From positions 3,711 through 67,710 of the forward strand of contig LJSY01000011.1 in assembly GCA_001314805.1 (NCBI GenBank): 64,000 nt of DNA, in the 5' to 3' direction. The stretch is from Rhodobacteraceae bacterium HLUCCO18. GTDB taxonomy: Bacteria; Pseudomonadota; Alphaproteobacteria; Rhodobacterales; Rhodobacteraceae. A program made the position numbers and the translations under genes. Shown piece after piece: positions 36,282-42,958 of this stretch. The notes beneath the pieces are model-generated. The model saw nothing but the letters and a program-made list of their open reading frames with translations, made no database searches and was not told where the DNA came from. Numbering within the stretch: the first letter of the stretch is position 1; the number at the start of each line of letters is the position of its first letter.

Positions 36282-36339
36282 ATACATGTCGGCCGGGCCA
36301 GGAGGGACCGGTCGGCCTGCACCTAGAAGGGAGAGCCAG

Positions 36340-36597
36340 ATGGCTGAAAACTCTGACAACAACGCGTACTGGGCCGCGAACATCCGCCTGGTCACCATCA
36401 GCCTGGTTATCTGGGCATTGGCATCATACGGCTTCGGCATCCTGCTTCGCCCGCTGATCAGCGGGATCGAGGTGGGCGGAACCGATCTGGGCTTCTGGTT
36501 TGCCCAGCAGGGGTCGATCCTCGTGTTTCTTGTCCTGATCTTCTTCTACGCCTGGCGTATGAACAAGATCGACAAGCAGCATGGCGTGGACGAATAA
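36340..36597 (+). CDS. DUF4212 small subunit of a sodium/solute symporter
   Basis: An 85-residue protein with two membrane helices (about 16-37 and 52-73) and the DUF4212 blocks YWAANIRLVTISLVIWALASYGFGILLRP and LGFWFAQQGSILVFLVLIFFYA. Members of this family are nearly always encoded directly before an ActP-like symporter and are thought to be its small subunit. The ATG at 36340 follows GAAGGGAGAGCC. The next gene starts 15 bases later. Confidence 0.88.
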   Translation: MAENSDNNAYWAANIRLVTISLVIWALASYGFGILLRPLISGIEVGGTDLGFWFAQQGSILVFLVLIFFYAWRMNKIDKQHGVDE

Positions 36598-36612: not shown

Positions 36613-38394
36613 ATGGATCAGACAACACTCAACATCATCGTCGTGGGGCTGTCTTTCGCGCTCTACTTCGCGATCGCGATCTGGGCCCGCGCGGGTTCCA
36701 CATCGGAATTCTATGCCGCCGGACGGGGTGTGAACCCGGTCGTCAACGGCATGGCAACCGCGGCCGACTGGATGTCGGCGGCCTCCTTCATCTCGATGGC
36801 GGGTCTCATCGCCTTCGTCGGCTACACGAACTCCAGCTTCCTGATGGGCTGGACCGGCGGCTACGTGCTGATGGCGATGCTCCTCGCGCCCTACCTGCGC
36901 AAGTTCGGCAAGTACACGGTGCCCGAGTTCATCGGCGACCGCTACTACTCGAACACGGCGCGGGTCGTGGGCGTGATCTGCCTCATCGTGATCTCGGTGA
37001 CCTATGTGATCGGTCAGATGACCGGTGCTGGCGTGGCCTTCTCGCGCTTTCTCGAAGTGAGCTCGTTCTGGGGTCTGATCATCGCCTCGGCGGTCGTGTT
37101 CGTATATGCCGTTCTGGGCGGCATGAAGGGCATCACCTACACGCAGGTGGCGCAGTACTGCGTTCTGATCGTCGCCTACACCATCCCGGCAGTCTTCATC
37201 TCGCTGCAGTTGACCGGCAACCCGATCCCGGGTCTGGGCCTGTTCTCGAACATGGCTCCGGGCGAGGTCGGCGCGGGCGAGCCGTTGCTCGCCACCCTCA
37301 ACGGGCTTCTGGTCGATCTGGGCTTCAACGAGTACACGACGGGTTCGACACCGTTCCTGATGGCGCTCTTCACCCTGTCGCTGATGATCGGCACCGCGGG
37401 TCTGCCGCATGTCATCATCCGCTTCTTCACGGTGCCGAAAGTAGCCGATGCCCGCTGGTCCGCCGGCTGGGCGCTGGTGTTCATCGCGCTGCTGTACCTG
37501 ACGGCCCCGGCCGTGGGGGCCATGGCTCGCCTGAACATCACGACCACCATGTGGCCGCAGGGCATCGAGGGTGAAGCTGTCGCGATCGAAGACCTGCCCG
37601 ACTGGTTCCGCACCTGGGAGGTCACGGGCCTTCTGGGCGTCGAGGACAAGAACGGCGACGGCCGCATCCAGTACTACAACGAAGCTTCCGAAGCCGGTCA
37701 GGCCTTCGCGGCCGAGCGTGGCTACGAGGGCAACGAGCTCGTCACCTTCAACCAGGACATCCTCGTGCTCGCCAACCCCGAGATCGCGCAGCTTCCGGGC
37801 TGGGTCATCGCGCTGATCGCCGCAGGCGGCATCGCGGCGGCACTGTCCACGGCGGCGGGACTTCTGCTGGCCATCTCCTCGGCCATCAGCCACGACCTCA
37901 TCAAATCGGTGATCAACCCCAACATCTCGGAAAAGGGCGAGCTTCTCGCTGCCCGGATCTCGATGGCGGGTGCGATCGTGCTGGCCACCTATCTGGGCCT
38001 CAACCCACCGGGCTTTGCGGCGCAGGTGGTGGCTCTGGCCTTCGGTCTGGCGGCGGCGACGCTGTTCCCGACCCTGATGATGGGGATCTTCTCCAAACGG
38101 ATGAACTCCGCCGGGGCGACCTGGGGGATGCTGGCCGGTCTTATCCTGACCTGCCTCTATCTCTTCACCTACCTCGGCTGGTTCTTCATTCCCGGCACGA
38201 ACATGCTGCCGAACACGGCCGACAACTGGATCCTCGGCATCCCGCCGACCCATTTCGGCCCGATCGGTGCGCTGGCGAACTTCGCGGTCGCCTACTTCGT
38301 GTCGAGGGCGACGGCAGCGCCGCCCGCGCATATCCAGGAGCTCGTCGAGAGCGTCCGGGTCCCGCGCGGTGCCGGTGCCGCATCGGATCACTGA
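36613..38394 (+). CDS. actP: ActP-like cation/acetate symporter (SSS family)
   Basis: A 593-residue sodium:solute symporter with about 13-14 helices. The SSS signature regions are visible in AAGRGVNPVVNGMATAADWMSAASFISMAGLI (about 35-66) and SLMIGTAGLPHVIIRFFTVP (about 256-275). A soluble insert at about 320-375 (EGEAVAIEDLP ... ERGYEGNELVTF) is characteristic of the VC_2705-type subfamily that pairs with DUF4212. It probably imports acetate or another short-chain organic acid with Na+, feeding Acs. A hairpin terminator lies 57-88 bases after its stop. Confidence 0.92.
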   Translation: MDQTTLNIIVVGLSFALYFAIAIWARAGSTSEFYAAGRGVNPVVNGMATAADWMSAASFISMAGLIAFVGYTNSSFLMGWTGGYVLMAMLLAPYLRKFGKYTVPEFIGDRYYSNTARVVGVICLIVISVTYVIGQMTGAGVAFSRFLEVSSFWGLIIASAVVFVYAVLGGMKGITYTQVAQYCVLIVAYTIPAVFISLQLTGNPIPGLGLFSNMAPGEVGAGEPLLATLNGLLVDLGFNEYTTGSTPFLMALFTLSLMIGTAGLPHVIIRFFTVPKVADARWSAGWALVFIALLYLTAPAVGAMARLNITTTMWPQGIEGEAVAIEDLPDWFRTWEVTGLLGVEDKNGDGRIQYYNEASEAGQAFAAERGYEGNELVTFNQDILVLANPEIAQLPGWVIALIAAGGIAAALSTAAGLLLAISSAISHDLIKSVINPNISEKGELLAARISMAGAIVLATYLGLNPPGFAAQVVALAFGLAAATLFPTLMMGIFSKRMNSAGATWGMLAGLILTCLYLFTYLGWFFIPGTNMLPNTADNWILGIPPTHFGPIGALANFAVAYFVSRATAAPPAHIQELVESVRVPRGAGAASDH

Positions 38395-38450: not shown

Positions 38451-38482
38451 GGCGCATCCCGAAGACATCGGGGTGCGCCTTT
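38451..38482 (+). terminator. Terminator-like hairpin after actP
   Basis: GGCGCATCCCGA (38451-38462) pairs with TCGGGGTGCGCC (38468-38479) through 12 bp with one T-G wobble, a 5-base loop and a following TTT. It would partly separate acs-adk-actP from the downstream sensory genes. It also overlaps a GTG at 38473, which argues against using that codon as the next gene start. Confidence 0.6.
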
Positions 38483-38499
38483 CCAATCCGGGACATGTC

Positions 38500-40314
38500 A
38501 TGACGGTCGATATCGCCGCCACGCTCGCCAGCACCCACCCCTATGACGTCCTGCCCGAGGATGCCCGGACAGCGCTGGCCGAGGCCATCGACAGCATCGA
38601 CCTCGTCGCGGGCGAGACGGTCTATTCCGTGGGCGAGCCGCAGACGCATCTTTACCTGATCGTGTCGGGCCGCATCGACATCACCGATCCCGACGGCGCG
38701 ATCCTCTCGATCCTGGGGCCGCGCAATTCCTTCGGCGAACGCGGGCTTCTGAAGGACGGCGTCGCCGTCGTCACCGCCAAGGCGTCCGAGGACAGCATGC
38801 TCCTGCGCATTCCCGCCGCGTCCTTCCACGCGCTGATCGCTGAGCATCCGCGCGTCATGCGTTTCTTCGACCGCACGCGACCCGCGCGCTCGCGCCGGCA
38901 GGACATCACCACGATCGCGCTCAGCGACCTGATGACACGCGATCCGCTGACCTGTGCGCCGGACACGCCGTTGATCGAGGCCGCGCGCAAGATGCGGGAA
39001 ATCCATGTCTCCTGCATCATCGCGACCGAGGACGGCGCGGTGCGCGGGATCCTGACGACAGGCGACATCACGTCCCGCGCGGTGGCCGAAGGTCTGTCGC
39101 TCGAGACACCGGTCGCGCAGGTCATGACCGCCGATCCCTCCACCCTGCCGCCGACGGCGCTGGTGGCGGACGTGCTCCACACCATGGTCGAGAAGGGTTT
39201 CACCCACATGCCGGTCGTCGAGGGCGGCAAGCTCGTGGGCATCCTGACCCAGACCGACCTGACGCGGTTCCAAGCCACGTCCTCGGCGGCGCTGATCCAG
39301 GAGATCTCTGCCGCCCCGGACAGCGCGGCCCTTGCGAGGATCGTGGGGCGCATCCCCGAACTTCTGGTGCAGCTGGTCGCGGCGCAGAACCCGCATCAGG
39401 TGGTCACCCGCCTGATCACCGATATCGGCGACGCCACGACGCGGCGGCTTCTGGCGCTGGCCGAGGCAAAGCTCGGGCCGCCGCCGGTGCCCTATCTCTG
39501 GCTTGCCTGCGGGTCTCAGGGGCGGCAGGAACAGACAGGCATCTCGGACCAGGACAATTGCCTGATCCTCGACGACGCCGTGACCCCGCCCGACGACACC
39601 TATTTCGCGGAACTGGCGAAATTCGTCTCCGACGGGCTCGACGAGGCGGGCTATTTCTTTTGTCCCGGCGACATGATGGCGACGAACATCCGCTGGCGGC
39701 AGCCGGCCCGCGTCTGGCGGAAGTACTTCCGCGACTGGATCGCCACGCCCAACCCCGAGGCGCAGATGCTGGCCTCGGTCATGTTCGACCTGCGACCCAT
39801 CGGGGGGCATTTCAGCCTGTTTGCCGACCTGCAGGAGGAGACGCTGGCGCAGGCCTCGAAGAACTCGATCTTCGTGGCGCACATGGTGTCCAACTCGCTC
39901 AAGCATCAGCCGCCGCTGGGCCTGTTCCGCGGCTTCGCGACGGTCCGCTCGGGCGAGCACAAGAACACCATCGACCTCAAGCACAACGGCGTCGTTCCGG
40001 TGACCGATCTGGGCCGGGTCTACGCGCTGAAGGGCCGCCTGACCGAGGTCAACACCCGCGCGCGGCTTGTCGCCGCGATCGAGGCCGGCGCGGTCTCGTC
40101 GGGCGGCGGGCGCGACCTGATCGACGCCTATGACATGATCGCCCAGACCCGGCTGGAACATCAGGCCGCCCAGATCCAGCGCGGCGAGAAGCCGGACAAT
40201 TTCATGACCCCCTCGGACCTCTCGGATTTCGAGCGGAGCCACCTTCGCGACGCCTTCGTCGTCATCAAGACCATGCAGAACGCCGCCGGATCGGGCGGCG
40301 GTTACCTGAACTGA
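38500..40314 (+). CDS. cNMP-binding/CBS/DUF294 nucleotidyltransferase-like signalling protein
   Basis: A 604-residue cytoplasmic protein with a cyclic-nucleotide-binding domain (about 15-125), two CBS domains (about 140-255), a GlnD-like nucleotidyltransferase domain (DUF294, about 285-425, core GSQGRQEQTGISDQDN with the Gly-Ser and Asp-x-Asp pair) and a DUF294 C-terminal domain (about 455-604). This architecture is commonly encoded next to ActP-type symporters and a DnaQ-like exonuclease, as here. It probably senses adenine nucleotides or a cyclic nucleotide and modifies a partner, possibly the symporter; the target is unknown. The ATG at 38500 is preferred to the GTG at 38473. Confidence 0.85.
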   Translation: MTVDIAATLASTHPYDVLPEDARTALAEAIDSIDLVAGETVYSVGEPQTHLYLIVSGRIDITDPDGAILSILGPRNSFGERGLLKDGVAVVTAKASEDSMLLRIPAASFHALIAEHPRVMRFFDRTRPARSRRQDITTIALSDLMTRDPLTCAPDTPLIEAARKMREIHVSCIIATEDGAVRGILTTGDITSRAVAEGLSLETPVAQVMTADPSTLPPTALVADVLHTMVEKGFTHMPVVEGGKLVGILTQTDLTRFQATSSAALIQEISAAPDSAALARIVGRIPELLVQLVAAQNPHQVVTRLITDIGDATTRRLLALAEAKLGPPPVPYLWLACGSQGRQEQTGISDQDNCLILDDAVTPPDDTYFAELAKFVSDGLDEAGYFFCPGDMMATNIRWRQPARVWRKYFRDWIATPNPEAQMLASVMFDLRPIGGHFSLFADLQEETLAQASKNSIFVAHMVSNSLKHQPPLGLFRGFATVRSGEHKNTIDLKHNGVVPVTDLGRVYALKGRLTEVNTRARLVAAIEAGAVSSGGGRDLIDAYDMIAQTRLEHQAAQIQRGEKPDNFMTPSDLSDFERSHLRDAFVVIKTMQNAAGSGGGYLN

Positions 40315-40330: not shown

Positions 40331-40864
40331 GTGTTCTACGCGCTGATCACGGCACTTTTCGCAGGCCTTGCGGGGGCGGGCATCGGCCTCGGCCTGCGGG
40401 CGCTTTCGGGCAAACGCCTGCCCAAGGGGATCATCCCGATCTGCGCGGGTCTGGCCATGCTCGTGGCGACCGTGGGTACGGAATACGCCTGGTATGACGG
40501 CGTCCGCTCGACCATGCCCGAGGACCTCGTGATCGTCTCGGAACGCGAGCAGCAGGCATGGTATCAGCCCTGGACCTTCGTCCGGCCCTGGGTGCGCGGC
40601 TTCATCGGCTATTCACCCTCCGAAACGGTCGAGACGGCGGAAGGCTCGGGCATCTACGTGGTGCAACTGAGAGGGCAGGAACGCTGGCAGCCGCAGGTCA
40701 TACGGCCCAACCTCGTCGATTGCGAGGGCGGCCGGCGCGCCGAGATCCTGCCGGACACGGGGTTCACCGAAACCGGCGAGCCTGTGGGCGTCACATGGCG
40801 CGAGGTGCCGGAAGACGACCCGATCCTGAGCGCCGTCTGCGGTGGAGGAGCCGCGGCCGGCTGA
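40331..40864 (+). CDS. Hypothetical membrane protein between DUF294 and exonuclease genes
   Basis: A 177-residue protein of unrecognised family. Two hydrophobic segments (about 2-26 with a GAGIGLGLRAL motif, and 34-52) are followed by a roughly 120-residue, probably periplasmic, domain rich in Trp and acidic residues (EQQAWYQPWTFVRPWVRGFIG, CEGGRRAEILPDTGF). Two cysteines (about residues 131 and 170) could form a disulfide. It starts at GTG with AAGGAA about 10 bases upstream. It is co-directional and close to the DUF294 gene (16 bases) and the sensor-exonuclease gene (75 bases), so it likely belongs to the same acetate-linked regulatory unit. Function unknown. Confidence 0.6.
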   Translation: MFYALITALFAGLAGAGIGLGLRALSGKRLPKGIIPICAGLAMLVATVGTEYAWYDGVRSTMPEDLVIVSEREQQAWYQPWTFVRPWVRGFIGYSPSETVETAEGSGIYVVQLRGQERWQPQVIRPNLVDCEGGRRAEILPDTGFTETGEPVGVTWREVPEDDPILSAVCGGGAAAG

Positions 40865-40939: not shown

Positions 40940-42958
40940 ATGTTCACGACACTCTCGCTGCGTCTGCGCATATTCCTGTTCTTCGCCTTTCTCGCCTGCG
41001 CCACCTCGGGGCTCGCCATCGCGGGGCTTGTGTTGGGCTACGTGCGGCTGGGCGAGGACCACGCGCTGTCGGCCTTCGTCATCGCCGGCGCCATCGCCGT
41101 TCTGGCGATCTTCGCGCTGACCACCTGGGTCTGGGTCCTGTTCGACGAGAACGTCGCCAAACCGGTGGAGCGTCTGGCCGCCGAGATGCGGGCGCGGGCT
41201 CATGCCGAAGTCAACGACGAGATCGACCACGCGCCGGCCAGGTATCTGGGCGATCTGGGCACTGCGGCGGCGGCGGTGGCGTCGAACCTGACCGAGACGC
41301 GCAACGCCATGGCACTCGCGGTGGGTCGGGAAACCGCGCGACTGGCCAGCGAGAAGACACGCCTTGAGACGCTTCTCTCCGAAGTGCCGGACGGTGTTCT
41401 GTTCTGCTCACCGTGGCACACGATCGCGCTTTACAACGGCCATGCGCGCGAAATCCTTGGCAGTTCCGAGGCGTTCGGGCTCAACCGCCCGTTGCGCGGG
41501 CTGTTGCGCATGGCGCCCATCCTGCAAGCCTATGAACGGCTGTTGACCAGGGGCAATGGCACGGATGACGAGGGCGGCACCGACGTTCTGGTCACGACCC
41601 GCGACGGCGCGCGCCTGCTGGAGGCGCGGATGCGTCTGCTGCGGCTGGAGGGACAGGAGACCGAGCACCCGGGCTATGTCCTGACGCTCCGCGACGTCAC
41701 CACGGACATGGCGACGCATCTGGAACGCACGCATCTGCTGGAGACGTTGCTTGGCGGTGTGAAGGAGGCGGTCGCGATCCTGCCGGACGGCGAGGCGGCC
41801 GATGCGCTTGCAACGCTTGCGGCGGAAACCGAACGCCGGAAACGCGCCACCGACACCGGATGGTGGCCGATGGAAAGCCTCGTGGCCGAGGATCTCGGCG
41901 CGGCGCTCGGGGCGCGACTGGCCCGCAAGGGCGTGGCAGTGGCCTGCGAACTTGGGCCGACGATCCTGCGCTGCGACGGGTTCGCGGTGACGCGGCTGCT
42001 GGAGCGGCTGGCGCTCGACTGGGCCGGTCAAGGGGCGGGAGAGCTGACGCTGACGCTCGCCTCCGAAGGCGCGGCGGAGGCGGTGGTCAGCCTCGAGGCG
42101 CGCGGCGACGTGCCGGACAGCGCGACGGTCGCCGGCTGGCTGAAGGAACCGCTATCCCCGGGAATGACCGGTTTCACCGGCGCGGCCGTCTGCGTGGCCC
42201 ATGGCACGTCGGTTGCCCCCGAACCCGCCGGGCCCGGCCGCGCCGCGTTGCGTTTCGCGCTGCCGCTGGCCCGCCCGGAGCCCAGCCGCCCCTACCGCAC
42301 CGTGCTTTACGATTTCGACCTGCTGAACGCGGACATCCCCGACGACCTTGCGGCGGCGAGCCTGCGGGGCCTGTCCTTCGTGGTGTTCGACACCGAAACC
42401 ACCGGCCTCAATCCACAGGTGGACGAGGTCTGCCAGATCGCCGCCGTGCGCGTGGTCAACGGCAAGCTCGTGGAGGGGGAGCGTTTCGACATGCTGGTCA
42501 ACCCGGGCCGCAAGATCCCCGCCGCCTCCACCGCCGTGCACCAGATCACCGACGCGATGGTGGCCGACGCCCCCGGTGTGACCGAGGCGCTGGCGCGGTT
42601 TCACACCTTCGCCGACGGCGCGGTGCTGGTGGCCCATAACGCGCCCTTCGACATGGCTTTCCTGAGGCGGCGCGAGCGCGAGATCGGGCGGCGTTTCGAC
42701 CAGCCCATCCTTGACACGGTGCTCTGTTCGGCGATCCTCTTTGGGCAATCGGCGGAGCACACGCTCGATGCGCTCTGCGAGCGGCTCGGCATCGCCATCC
42801 CGGAGGCCGACCGGCACACCGCGATCGGCGACGCTGTTGGCACGGGCGAGGCGTTTCGCAAGATGATCCCGATGCTCGAAGCGGCAGAACTGCCCAATCT
42901 GGGGGCACTCATCAAGGCTTTCGACCGTCATTCACGGTTGATCGAACACCTCAATTGA
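40940..42958 (+). CDS. Membrane sensor (HAMP/PAS-like) fused to a DnaQ-like 3'-5' exonuclease
   Basis: A 672-residue fusion. Two N-terminal helices (about 8-33 and 38-65) anchor it in the membrane, followed by a HAMP-like coil (about 70-130), a PAS-like domain (about 145-255) and a degenerate histidine-kinase-like middle (about 260-465, with no clear phospho-acceptor His or ATP-binding N/G boxes). The C-terminal 195 residues are a DEDDh exonuclease with every catalytic residue: Asp484, Glu486, Asp571, His626 and Asp631. Such exonucleases are often found beside actP and DUF294 genes. Membrane tethering suggests a signalling or nucleotide-cleaving role rather than replication proofreading. GGAGGAGG precedes the ATG. 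Confidence 0.82.
   Translation: MFTTLSLRLRIFLFFAFLACATSGLAIAGLVLGYVRLGEDHALSAFVIAGAIAVLAIFALTTWVWVLFDENVAKPVERLAAEMRARAHAEVNDEIDHAPARYLGDLGTAAAAVASNLTETRNAMALAVGRETARLASEKTRLETLLSEVPDGVLFCSPWHTIALYNGHAREILGSSEAFGLNRPLRGLLRMAPILQAYERLLTRGNGTDDEGGTDVLVTTRDGARLLEARMRLLRLEGQETEHPGYVLTLRDVTTDMATHLERTHLLETLLGGVKEAVAILPDGEAADALATLAAETERRKRATDTGWWPMESLVAEDLGAALGARLARKGVAVACELGPTILRCDGFAVTRLLERLALDWAGQGAGELTLTLASEGAAEAVVSLEARGDVPDSATVAGWLKEPLSPGMTGFTGAAVCVAHGTSVAPEPAGPGRAALRFALPLARPEPSRPYRTVLYDFDLLNADIPDDLAAASLRGLSFVVFDTETTGLNPQVDEVCQIAAVRVVNGKLVEGERFDMLVNPGRKIPAASTAVHQITDAMVADAPGVTEALARFHTFADGAVLVAHNAPFDMAFLRRREREIGRRFDQPILDTVLCSAILFGQSAEHTLDALCERLGIAIPEADRHTAIGDAVGTGEAFRKMIPMLEAAELPNLGALIKAFDRHSRLIEHLN

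Follow-up and report, generated by a model that had tools for sequence, protein, structure and literature searches.

A conserved membrane sensor-type protein ending in an apparently intact DEDDh exonuclease, and its near-constant DUF294 partner

The gene and its domains

The window analysed here is a stretch of 64,000 nucleotides from Rhodobacteraceae bacterium HLUCCO18 (GCA_001314805.1, contig LJSY01000011.1, positions 3,711 to 67,710), and our subject is one gene in it, which reads without interruption from the ATG at 40940 to the stop at 42958 and encodes a protein of 672 residues, here called the membrane exonuclease. The protein joins two membrane helices, a helical connector, a PAS-like domain and a kinase-like middle to a C-terminal exonuclease domain of the DEDDh type, and its gene is the last of an operon-like run that starts with a DUF4212 gene and a VC_2705-family symporter gene and continues with genes for a cyclic nucleotide monophosphate (cNMP)-CBS-DUF294 nucleotidyltransferase (NTase) and a 177-residue protein (Table 1). 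This fusion of a membrane sensor-type part with a DEDDh exonuclease is conserved and strongly constrained within a transporter operon. Its tightest partner is the DUF294 nucleotidyltransferase, which is near-constant in its company and is sometimes fused to an exonuclease.

In reference genomes, 574 relatives of the membrane exonuclease were confirmed; the best 80, a selected set of close relatives, were kept and aligned with the window protein, making 81 sequences. Most of the 80 are from Rhodobacterales, with others from Rhizobiales (L067, L075) and Burkholderiales (L060, L064). Alignment A1 retains 61 of the 81, after exclusion of near-duplicates, fragments and one sequence with unknown residues, and alignment A2 retains 54, after the further exclusion of two forms without DHp helices. 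An earlier note on this DNA, made from its letters, had described a single frame and had allowed that two cistrons might have been joined by a sequencing error. The sensor and exonuclease parts lie within one open frame in all 80 kept relatives, and the coding composition is steady along the gene, with a third-position GC of 0.78-0.93 in every one of ten 67-codon blocks. The single frame is therefore borne out and the sequencing error, strongly contradicted by the relatives, is rejected; the exception is one genome (G419) among 149 of the family, where the two halves are adjacent frames. Mean identity to the window protein is 0.69 in the exonuclease, 0.58 in the connector, 0.52 in the PAS-like domain and 0.50 in the membrane part, and it is lowest in the DHp-like (0.28) and CA-like (0.35) segments, which are the drifting parts.

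The C-terminal domain is, judged from its residues, apparently an intact DEDDh exonuclease. It matches PF00929 (RNase_T) at residues 481-635 with an E of 1.4e-36 (127 bits against a cut-off of 24), and the five catalytic residues that had been named for it, Asp484, Glu486, Asp571, His626 and Asp631, stand exactly where they were placed and are invariant in 81 of 81 sequences. The YDFDLL motif that precedes the domain has D458, F459 and L461 in all 81, and it is recognisable in altered form in shorter relatives without the kinase-like middle. Structural comparison with VIA-align gave Z scores of 25.3 to the exonuclease part of a PolC-type polymerase, 22.1 to the epsilon subunit of DNA polymerase III (Pol III), 18.8 to RNase T and 18.0 to the 3'-5' exonuclease Cap18 (7t2s), and the top sequence match among solved structures was a PolC-type exonuclease. 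The NCBIfam equivalog dnaQ_proteo scores 100 bits, below its cut-off of 222.7, which speaks against the epsilon subunit; a separate DnaQ-like gene, a frame of 240 residues, is present in the same genome. The genome also has a 229-residue frame matching PF01612, the family to which NrnC presumably belongs, and this is another candidate for pGpG degradation. Membership in an anti-phage DEDDh system or in a cyclic-oligonucleotide-based antiphage signalling system (CBASS) was considered and rejected, as the PADLOC matches of the window protein are generic and confined to the exonuclease domain and no defence setting appeared among the neighbours viewed (adk, symporter, DUF294, GntR regulator).

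The middle of the protein has no Pfam match to HisKA or HATPase_c, either in the window protein (E up to 1) or in 61 family members (E <= 0.01), and it is the fold that assigns it. A structure model of the full protein, with a mean predicted local distance difference test score (pLDDT) of 86, has among its best Foldseek matches the PAS histidine kinases WalK and the blue-light kinase 4gcz; these whole-chain superpositions have a large root-mean-square deviation (rmsd) and inform on domain content only. Since the listed VIA-align rows for the full model covered essentially the exonuclease alone, the middle was modelled separately. Residues 254-448 on their own gave a model with a pLDDT of 92, and all 50 VIA-align rows listed for it were of the histidine-kinase kind, provided that a few of them, such as DivL and a bacteriophytochrome, are rightly counted as such. 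The coverage is mainly of the CA part, for which the best match is the ATP-binding domain of PrrB (Z 14.8, rmsd 2.7, 129 residues aligned), and DivL (4q20) follows the middle with a Z of 12.9; the DHp helices are present in the model and scarcely covered by the structural matches. The DHp-CA fold of a histidine kinase is thus found in the model, together with membrane helices and a PAS-like domain.

The residues that make such a fold a kinase are missing. The column of the phospho-acceptor (residue 272) holds Asp in 63, Glu in 11 and His in none of the 81 sequences; it was located by a low-probability hhalign alignment of the middle to one Paracoccus kinase, collinear but of only 2% probability (E 0.022), which was used solely to place this column. 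No conserved Asn column of an N-box occurs within 354-363 (maximum 2 of 81), and no conserved Asp column of a G1-box within 384-390 (maximum 15 of 81). On these residues, an active histidine kinase was rejected. The degenerate middle of the earlier note is thereby upheld, and on its predicted fold it is a pseudo-histidine kinase, which has kept the kinase fold and lost the catalytic residues.

Several relatives have gone further. Two Burkholderiales members are without the DHp-like helices, the 479-residue form of Ruegeria TM1040 lacks the kinase-like part, and two relatives consist of a hydrophobic N-terminus (by eye) and the exonuclease only, in stop-to-stop frames of 319 and 347 residues. 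Among the 149 family genomes, 29 give a single alignment over essentially the entire protein. A further 44 have a match at E <= 1e-30, and in most of these the alignment is confined to the N-terminal 200-260 residues and the exonuclease. Because it is lost in relatives, the kinase-like part is dispensable for the core function.

At the other end of the protein, hydropathy shows hydrophobic segments at about 1-35 and 39-70, and the model has helices at 7-37 and 40-89, in agreement with the two membrane helices first described. The HAMP region that had been placed after them found no support: Pfam HAMP has no match in the window protein (E up to 1) or in any of 61 family members (E <= 0.01), and only the helical layout recalls it. 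The PAS-like region fared better. PF00989 matches residues 141-253 with an E of 4.5e-4 and 20.6 bits, slightly under the cut-off of 22.6, PAS_4 is matched in 39 of 61 family members at E <= 0.01, and the structure model and Foldseek agree on PAS. Its most conserved columns are Cys156 (79 of 81) and Tyr165 and Asn166 (81 of 81 each). The cysteine, encoded at 41405-41407, and the invariant Tyr-Asn pair may mark a cofactor or redox site.

The operon

The DUF294 gene lies two genes upstream of the membrane exonuclease gene. Of the 80 loci, 78 have a match to DUF294, 74 to the 177-residue protein, 71 to the symporter, 64 to DUF4212 and 58 to adk; many of the misses are contig ends, and a few loci have a weak symporter match (27-28%). 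The symporter scores 129.5 bits against the ActP equivalog cut-off of 1099 and by that measure is not an ActP; it is of the VC_2705/DUF4212 type, so the label of an acetate-transport cluster is conjectural. This label and the HAMP region are the parts of the earlier observation that were not confirmed, while the architecture and catalytic residues stand. A match to the downstream GntR gene occurs in only 11 of the 80 loci, and this gene is therefore placed outside the system. Between 36000 and 44000 a scan for sigma-70 promoters found none, and a scan for terminators found 4 against a mean of 3.4, which is chance level; neither scan is informative. The 177-residue protein has a hydrophobic N-terminus (by eye), and it also adjoins exonucleases that are encoded as stand-alone genes (L116, L117).

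Table 1. Features of the operon and of the membrane exonuclease, in window coordinates
Feature	Position	Strand	Basis
DUF4212 symporter small subunit	36286..36597	+	PF13937 E 3.9e-32; TIGR03647
VC_2705-family sodium/solute symporter, large subunit	36613..38394	+	TIGR03648 802.7 bits vs cut-off 320.75
cNMP-CBS-DUF294 nucleotidyltransferase, proposed partner	38473..40314	+	Pfam; NTase signature GSQGRQEQTGISDQDN
177-aa conserved operon protein	40331..40864	+	matched in 74/80 loci; no Pfam family
Gene of the 672-aa membrane exonuclease (predicted pseudo-kinase/exonuclease)	40940..42958	+	open frame; 80 kept relatives single-frame
Two membrane helices, residues 7-37 and 40-72, periplasmic loop almost nil	40958..41155	+	hydropathy; model
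Helical connector, residues 73-140, HAMP-like in layout only	41156..41359	+	model helices to 89 and 105-147
PAS-like domain, residues 141-254	41360..41701	+	PF00989 below cut-off; alignment columns
DHp-like helix pair, residues 255-308	41702..41863	+	models; alignment columns
Degenerate ATPase (CA-like) domain, residues 309-446	41864..42277	+	VIA-align to PrrB ATP-binding domain
YDFDLL motif, residues 457-462, directly N-terminal of the exonuclease	42308..42325	+	alignment columns
Predicted DEDDh 3'-5' exonuclease domain, residues 479-645	42374..42874	+	PF00929; VIA-align

The pairing with DUF294

The DUF294 neighbour has the DUF294 and DUF294_C domains and the NTase signature. The signature is present in 75 of the 80 loci; of the five others, two have no DUF294 match (L055, L077) and three have a partial one at a contig end (L032, L059, L062). 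With thresholds of E <= 1e-30 for the exonuclease and E <= 1e-25 for DUF294, the 149 family genomes comprise 73 with the exonuclease and 74 with DUF294; 72 have both, 74 neither, one the exonuclease alone (G461) and two DUF294 without the membrane exonuclease (G411, G453). Fisher's test gives p 4.5e-39 for this co-occurrence, uncorrected for kinship. In 71 of these genomes the two matches share a contig, at a distance of 1.6-4.4 kb; in the last of the 72 (G510) they are on separate contigs of a fragmented assembly.

In G411 and G453 an exonuclease, two CBS domains, DUF294 and DUF294_C are encoded in a single frame. Among 289 genomes of the class, this fusion aligns over most of its length and free of stops in eight (G788, G726, G796, G684, G012, G589, G696 and G728), with one stop in two more and by a partial alignment in another. 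Examples are found at L160:4509-6776 (-), at L161:7188-9281 (+) and in L170-L173, and they come from several alphaproteobacterial families. None of the eight plasmid records that match the exonuclease-NTase fusion protein covers 80% of it.

A second setting was met in 8 of 13 further loci, where the membrane exonuclease is accompanied by a CrbS-like kinase and a response regulator; two are on Paracoccus plasmids, one is on a Cupriavidus plasmid and five are in other genomes. DUF294 is present as well in seven of these eight, and L167 has none in its stretch. The Paracoccus kinase passes the cut-offs for HisKA and HATPase_c, and its symporter-like N-terminus falls below (19.8 against 22.8 bits); "CrbS-like" is our own reading of it. 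The genome of the window also encodes a CrbS-like kinase (contig C33, 27510-30149, L177), 43% identical to the Paracoccus kinase over residues 8-892. On the sequence matches, the second setting ties the membrane exonuclease to the CrbS/R circuit, through which Pseudomonas and Vibrio sense carboxylates (PMC5715377).

In other Proteobacteria, a different, stand-alone exonuclease often adjoins DUF294. The 30 DUF294 places that scored best in 398 genomes sampled from the phylum, which are not a random draw, were inspected: 17 have an adjoining stand-alone exonuclease, 6 a membrane-type start, and 3 show only the 177-residue protein, longer stretches revealing the membrane type in two of these three. 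A tree separates stand-alone from membrane exonucleases by a 100/100 branch (L116, L124 and L125 are omitted, being the same genes as L098, L095 and L099). Its outgroup is only two DnaQ rows, and the long branches of DnaQ and of the exonuclease-NTase proteins meet and are possibly misplaced, so that the rooting is weak. Within that limit, more than one DEDDh lineage seems to have become associated with DUF294, which points to a functional requirement. The third acidic position is Glu in 12 of the 17 stand-alone partners (for example L095, L098 and L099) and Asp in 81 of 81 membrane forms. The stand-alone exonuclease of L118 has Asn at the last catalytic Asp.

Proposed mechanism and alternatives

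The near-constant pairing and the natural fusions suggest that the two proteins form a pair that adds and removes nucleotides. Our preferred reading, to which we give a probability of roughly 0.4, is that the window protein acts as a 3'-5' exonuclease, tethered to the membrane and controlled by its sensor half, which counteracts the addition of nucleotides by the DUF294 protein and thus tunes the carboxylate use linked to the symporter. The PAS-like domain and the dead histidine-kinase core would form a membrane sensor, presumably a dimer, whose output is the exonuclease instead of phosphotransfer. The DUF294 protein, under the control of its cNMP and CBS domains, would add nucleotides to a target; the exonuclease would take them off when the sensor half permits; and the balance of addition and removal would set the use of the solute of the DUF4212/VC_2705 symporter. 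We infer the enzymatic activities, their opposition, the shared substrate and the control of the symporter, and, from the layout, the gating of the exonuclease by the sensor half. The earlier note had proposed a signalling role in which a nucleotide second messenger or a small RNA is degraded; it was right about the sensor-type membrane protein and about the intact DEDDh exonuclease in it, and in place of its suggested substrate we favour the nucleotide add/remove pair with DUF294.

A pair of genes in Pseudomonas putida offers a comparison, namely the exonuclease gene pp_0353 and pp_0354, the latter of which we take to be of the DUF294 type. The exonuclease and CBS-protein genes lie in one operon, and growth on pyruvate is impaired by deleting pp_0353 or actP-I but not pp_0354, while none of the three deletions causes a defect on 20 mM acetate (PMC9927547). 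The asymmetry on pyruvate fits a writer and an eraser, because loss of the eraser would lock the target in its modified state, whereas loss of the writer would be harmless.

Two nucleases bear on the nature of the shared substrate, RNase Z and RNase T, and the second is presumably a DEDDh enzyme. RNase Z strips AMP from proteins, a nuclease acting as a de-AMPylase, but an AMPylated protein kept its AMP when treated with RNase T in vitro (PMC12663964). Since RNase T left its target unchanged, protein de-nucleotidylation is not general to such enzymes, and an RNA 3' end is at least as likely as a protein to be the shared substrate. We regard as rather unlikely a narrower version of our proposal, in which DUF294 writes and the DEDDh enzyme erases, under signal control, a reversible (oligo)nucleotidylation. 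The mark would sit on a carboxylate symporter or on the small subunit of this transporter, and a dead histidine kinase would reset it at the membrane. If true, it would add a new class of reversible transporter regulation across Proteobacteria, taking the forms of neighbouring genes, a sensor fusion and a writer-eraser fusion.

Several observations, beside that on RNase T, weigh against the add/remove pair under sensor control. The kinase-like middle is dispensable in relatives, so that its part in gating is conjectural. Among the 149 genomes, G461 carries the exonuclease but no DUF294. Conversely, 4 of the 30 DUF294 places (L093, L100, L103 and L115) have no exonuclease, longer stretches included, and L096/L119 (genome G259) has a DUF4212-symporter-DUF294-177-residue operon in a 15-kb stretch that gave no match to the exonuclease. 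The P. putida exonuclease is of the stand-alone type by gene order, and, with Glu at the third acidic position, the chemistry of stand-alone partners may differ.

DEDDh enzymes are classical trimmers of RNA and DNA 3' ends, and the fold of the domain is near that of RNase T. The window protein might then be a membrane-held enzyme of mRNA or small-RNA decay, whose sensor lets transcripts of the symporter operon or of central carbon metabolism be trimmed, with DUF294 only co-regulated. PMC9927547 raises mRNA decay as a speculation for pp_0353 and calls the role of the exonuclease unclear. We hold this explanation to be possible, if unlikely, for it leaves the near-constant pairing with DUF294 and the natural fusions unexplained.

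Nearest to the earlier note is the idea of a second messenger, a nucleotide or oligonucleotide made by DUF294, which the exonuclease degrades while the sensor sets its level. Polymerase-beta-type NTases make signals in CBASS, and Cap18, the structural neighbour of the exonuclease, presumably acts there; together with the pairing itself, these are the points in its favour. Set against them are the lack of any receptor gene recognised among the named neighbours, the structural matches listed for the output domain, which are nucleic-acid exonucleases, and the grouping of DUF294_C with GlnD/GlnE-type NTase proteins (PMC3710099), whose known members modify proteins. This makes a second messenger improbable to us; if DUF294 did make a nucleotide signal, the older idea would survive in a changed form.

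The eight loci with a CrbS-like kinase and response regulator, and the presence of such a kinase in the window's own genome, would suit a kinase-like half that serves a CrbS-type kinase as a scaffold or acts on it as a dominant-negative partner, with the exonuclease in a secondary role. Many relatives, however, drop the kinase-like part and retain the exonuclease, whose catalytic residues are invariant, and we think such a role quite improbable. That the protein is an ordinary exonuclease of DNA repair or proofreading whose membrane anchor is accidental, a view for which the PolC-type top match speaks, is hardly credible given the separate DnaQ-like gene, the dnaQ score below cut-off and the conserved transporter operon.

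To return to the add/remove pair, DUF294/CBS proteins with exonuclease neighbours are common in Proteobacteria. With the natural fusions, the almost complete co-occurrence and a published deletion phenotype on one side only, what was a vague association now yields a specific prediction.

Comparison with known systems

For the P. aeruginosa cluster PA3232-PA3235, the assignment of individual PA numbers to genes is presumed here. PP_0353/PP_0354 of P. putida and PA3232-PA3235 (targets of MxtR/ErdR, a CrbS/CrbR homologue) resemble the window system in having an operon of an RNase_T exonuclease and a CBS protein with a link to actP/yjcH (PMC9927547). Propionate raises the PA3232-PA3235 cluster in PAO1 (PMC9765439), and the DUF294/CBS-type protein of P. 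fluorescens is described as still to be characterised in detail (PMC5715377). In contrast to the window protein, the Pseudomonas exonuclease is a stand-alone gene with no membrane or sensor part, and the transporter is ActP, not a VC_2705-type symporter; the tree, which covers stand-alone exonucleases other than PP_0353 itself, puts these on another DEDDh branch. The association of exonuclease, CBS protein and symporter was thus already known, although unexplained, and the pairing with DUF294 is our main addition. In the literature searched, which included few subscription journals, the accessible text describes no membrane- or sensor-fused DEDDh exonuclease and no exonuclease-DUF294 fusion.

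As regulators, GlnE and the SelO/RNase Z writer-eraser pair are alike in using the addition and removal of nucleotides; the difference is that a DEDDh exonuclease would do the erasing here, and RNase T failed in the assay (PMC12663964). With the exonuclease part of PolC, Pol III epsilon, ExoX and RNase T, the C-terminal domain shares its fold (Z 25.3 to 18.8) and the five catalytic residues. Unlike them, it is fused to a membrane part, a PAS-like domain and a predicted pseudo-kinase, and it lies in no replication or tRNA-maturation setting. The layout of membrane helix, helix, PAS, DHp and CA, and the CA fold, are those of WalK, of the YF1-type PAS kinases and of the pseudo-kinase DivL, from which the window protein differs in having no acceptor His and no N- or G1-box residues, and in that its output is an exonuclease. 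A histidine-kinase scaffold with a nuclease as its output would be an unusual case.

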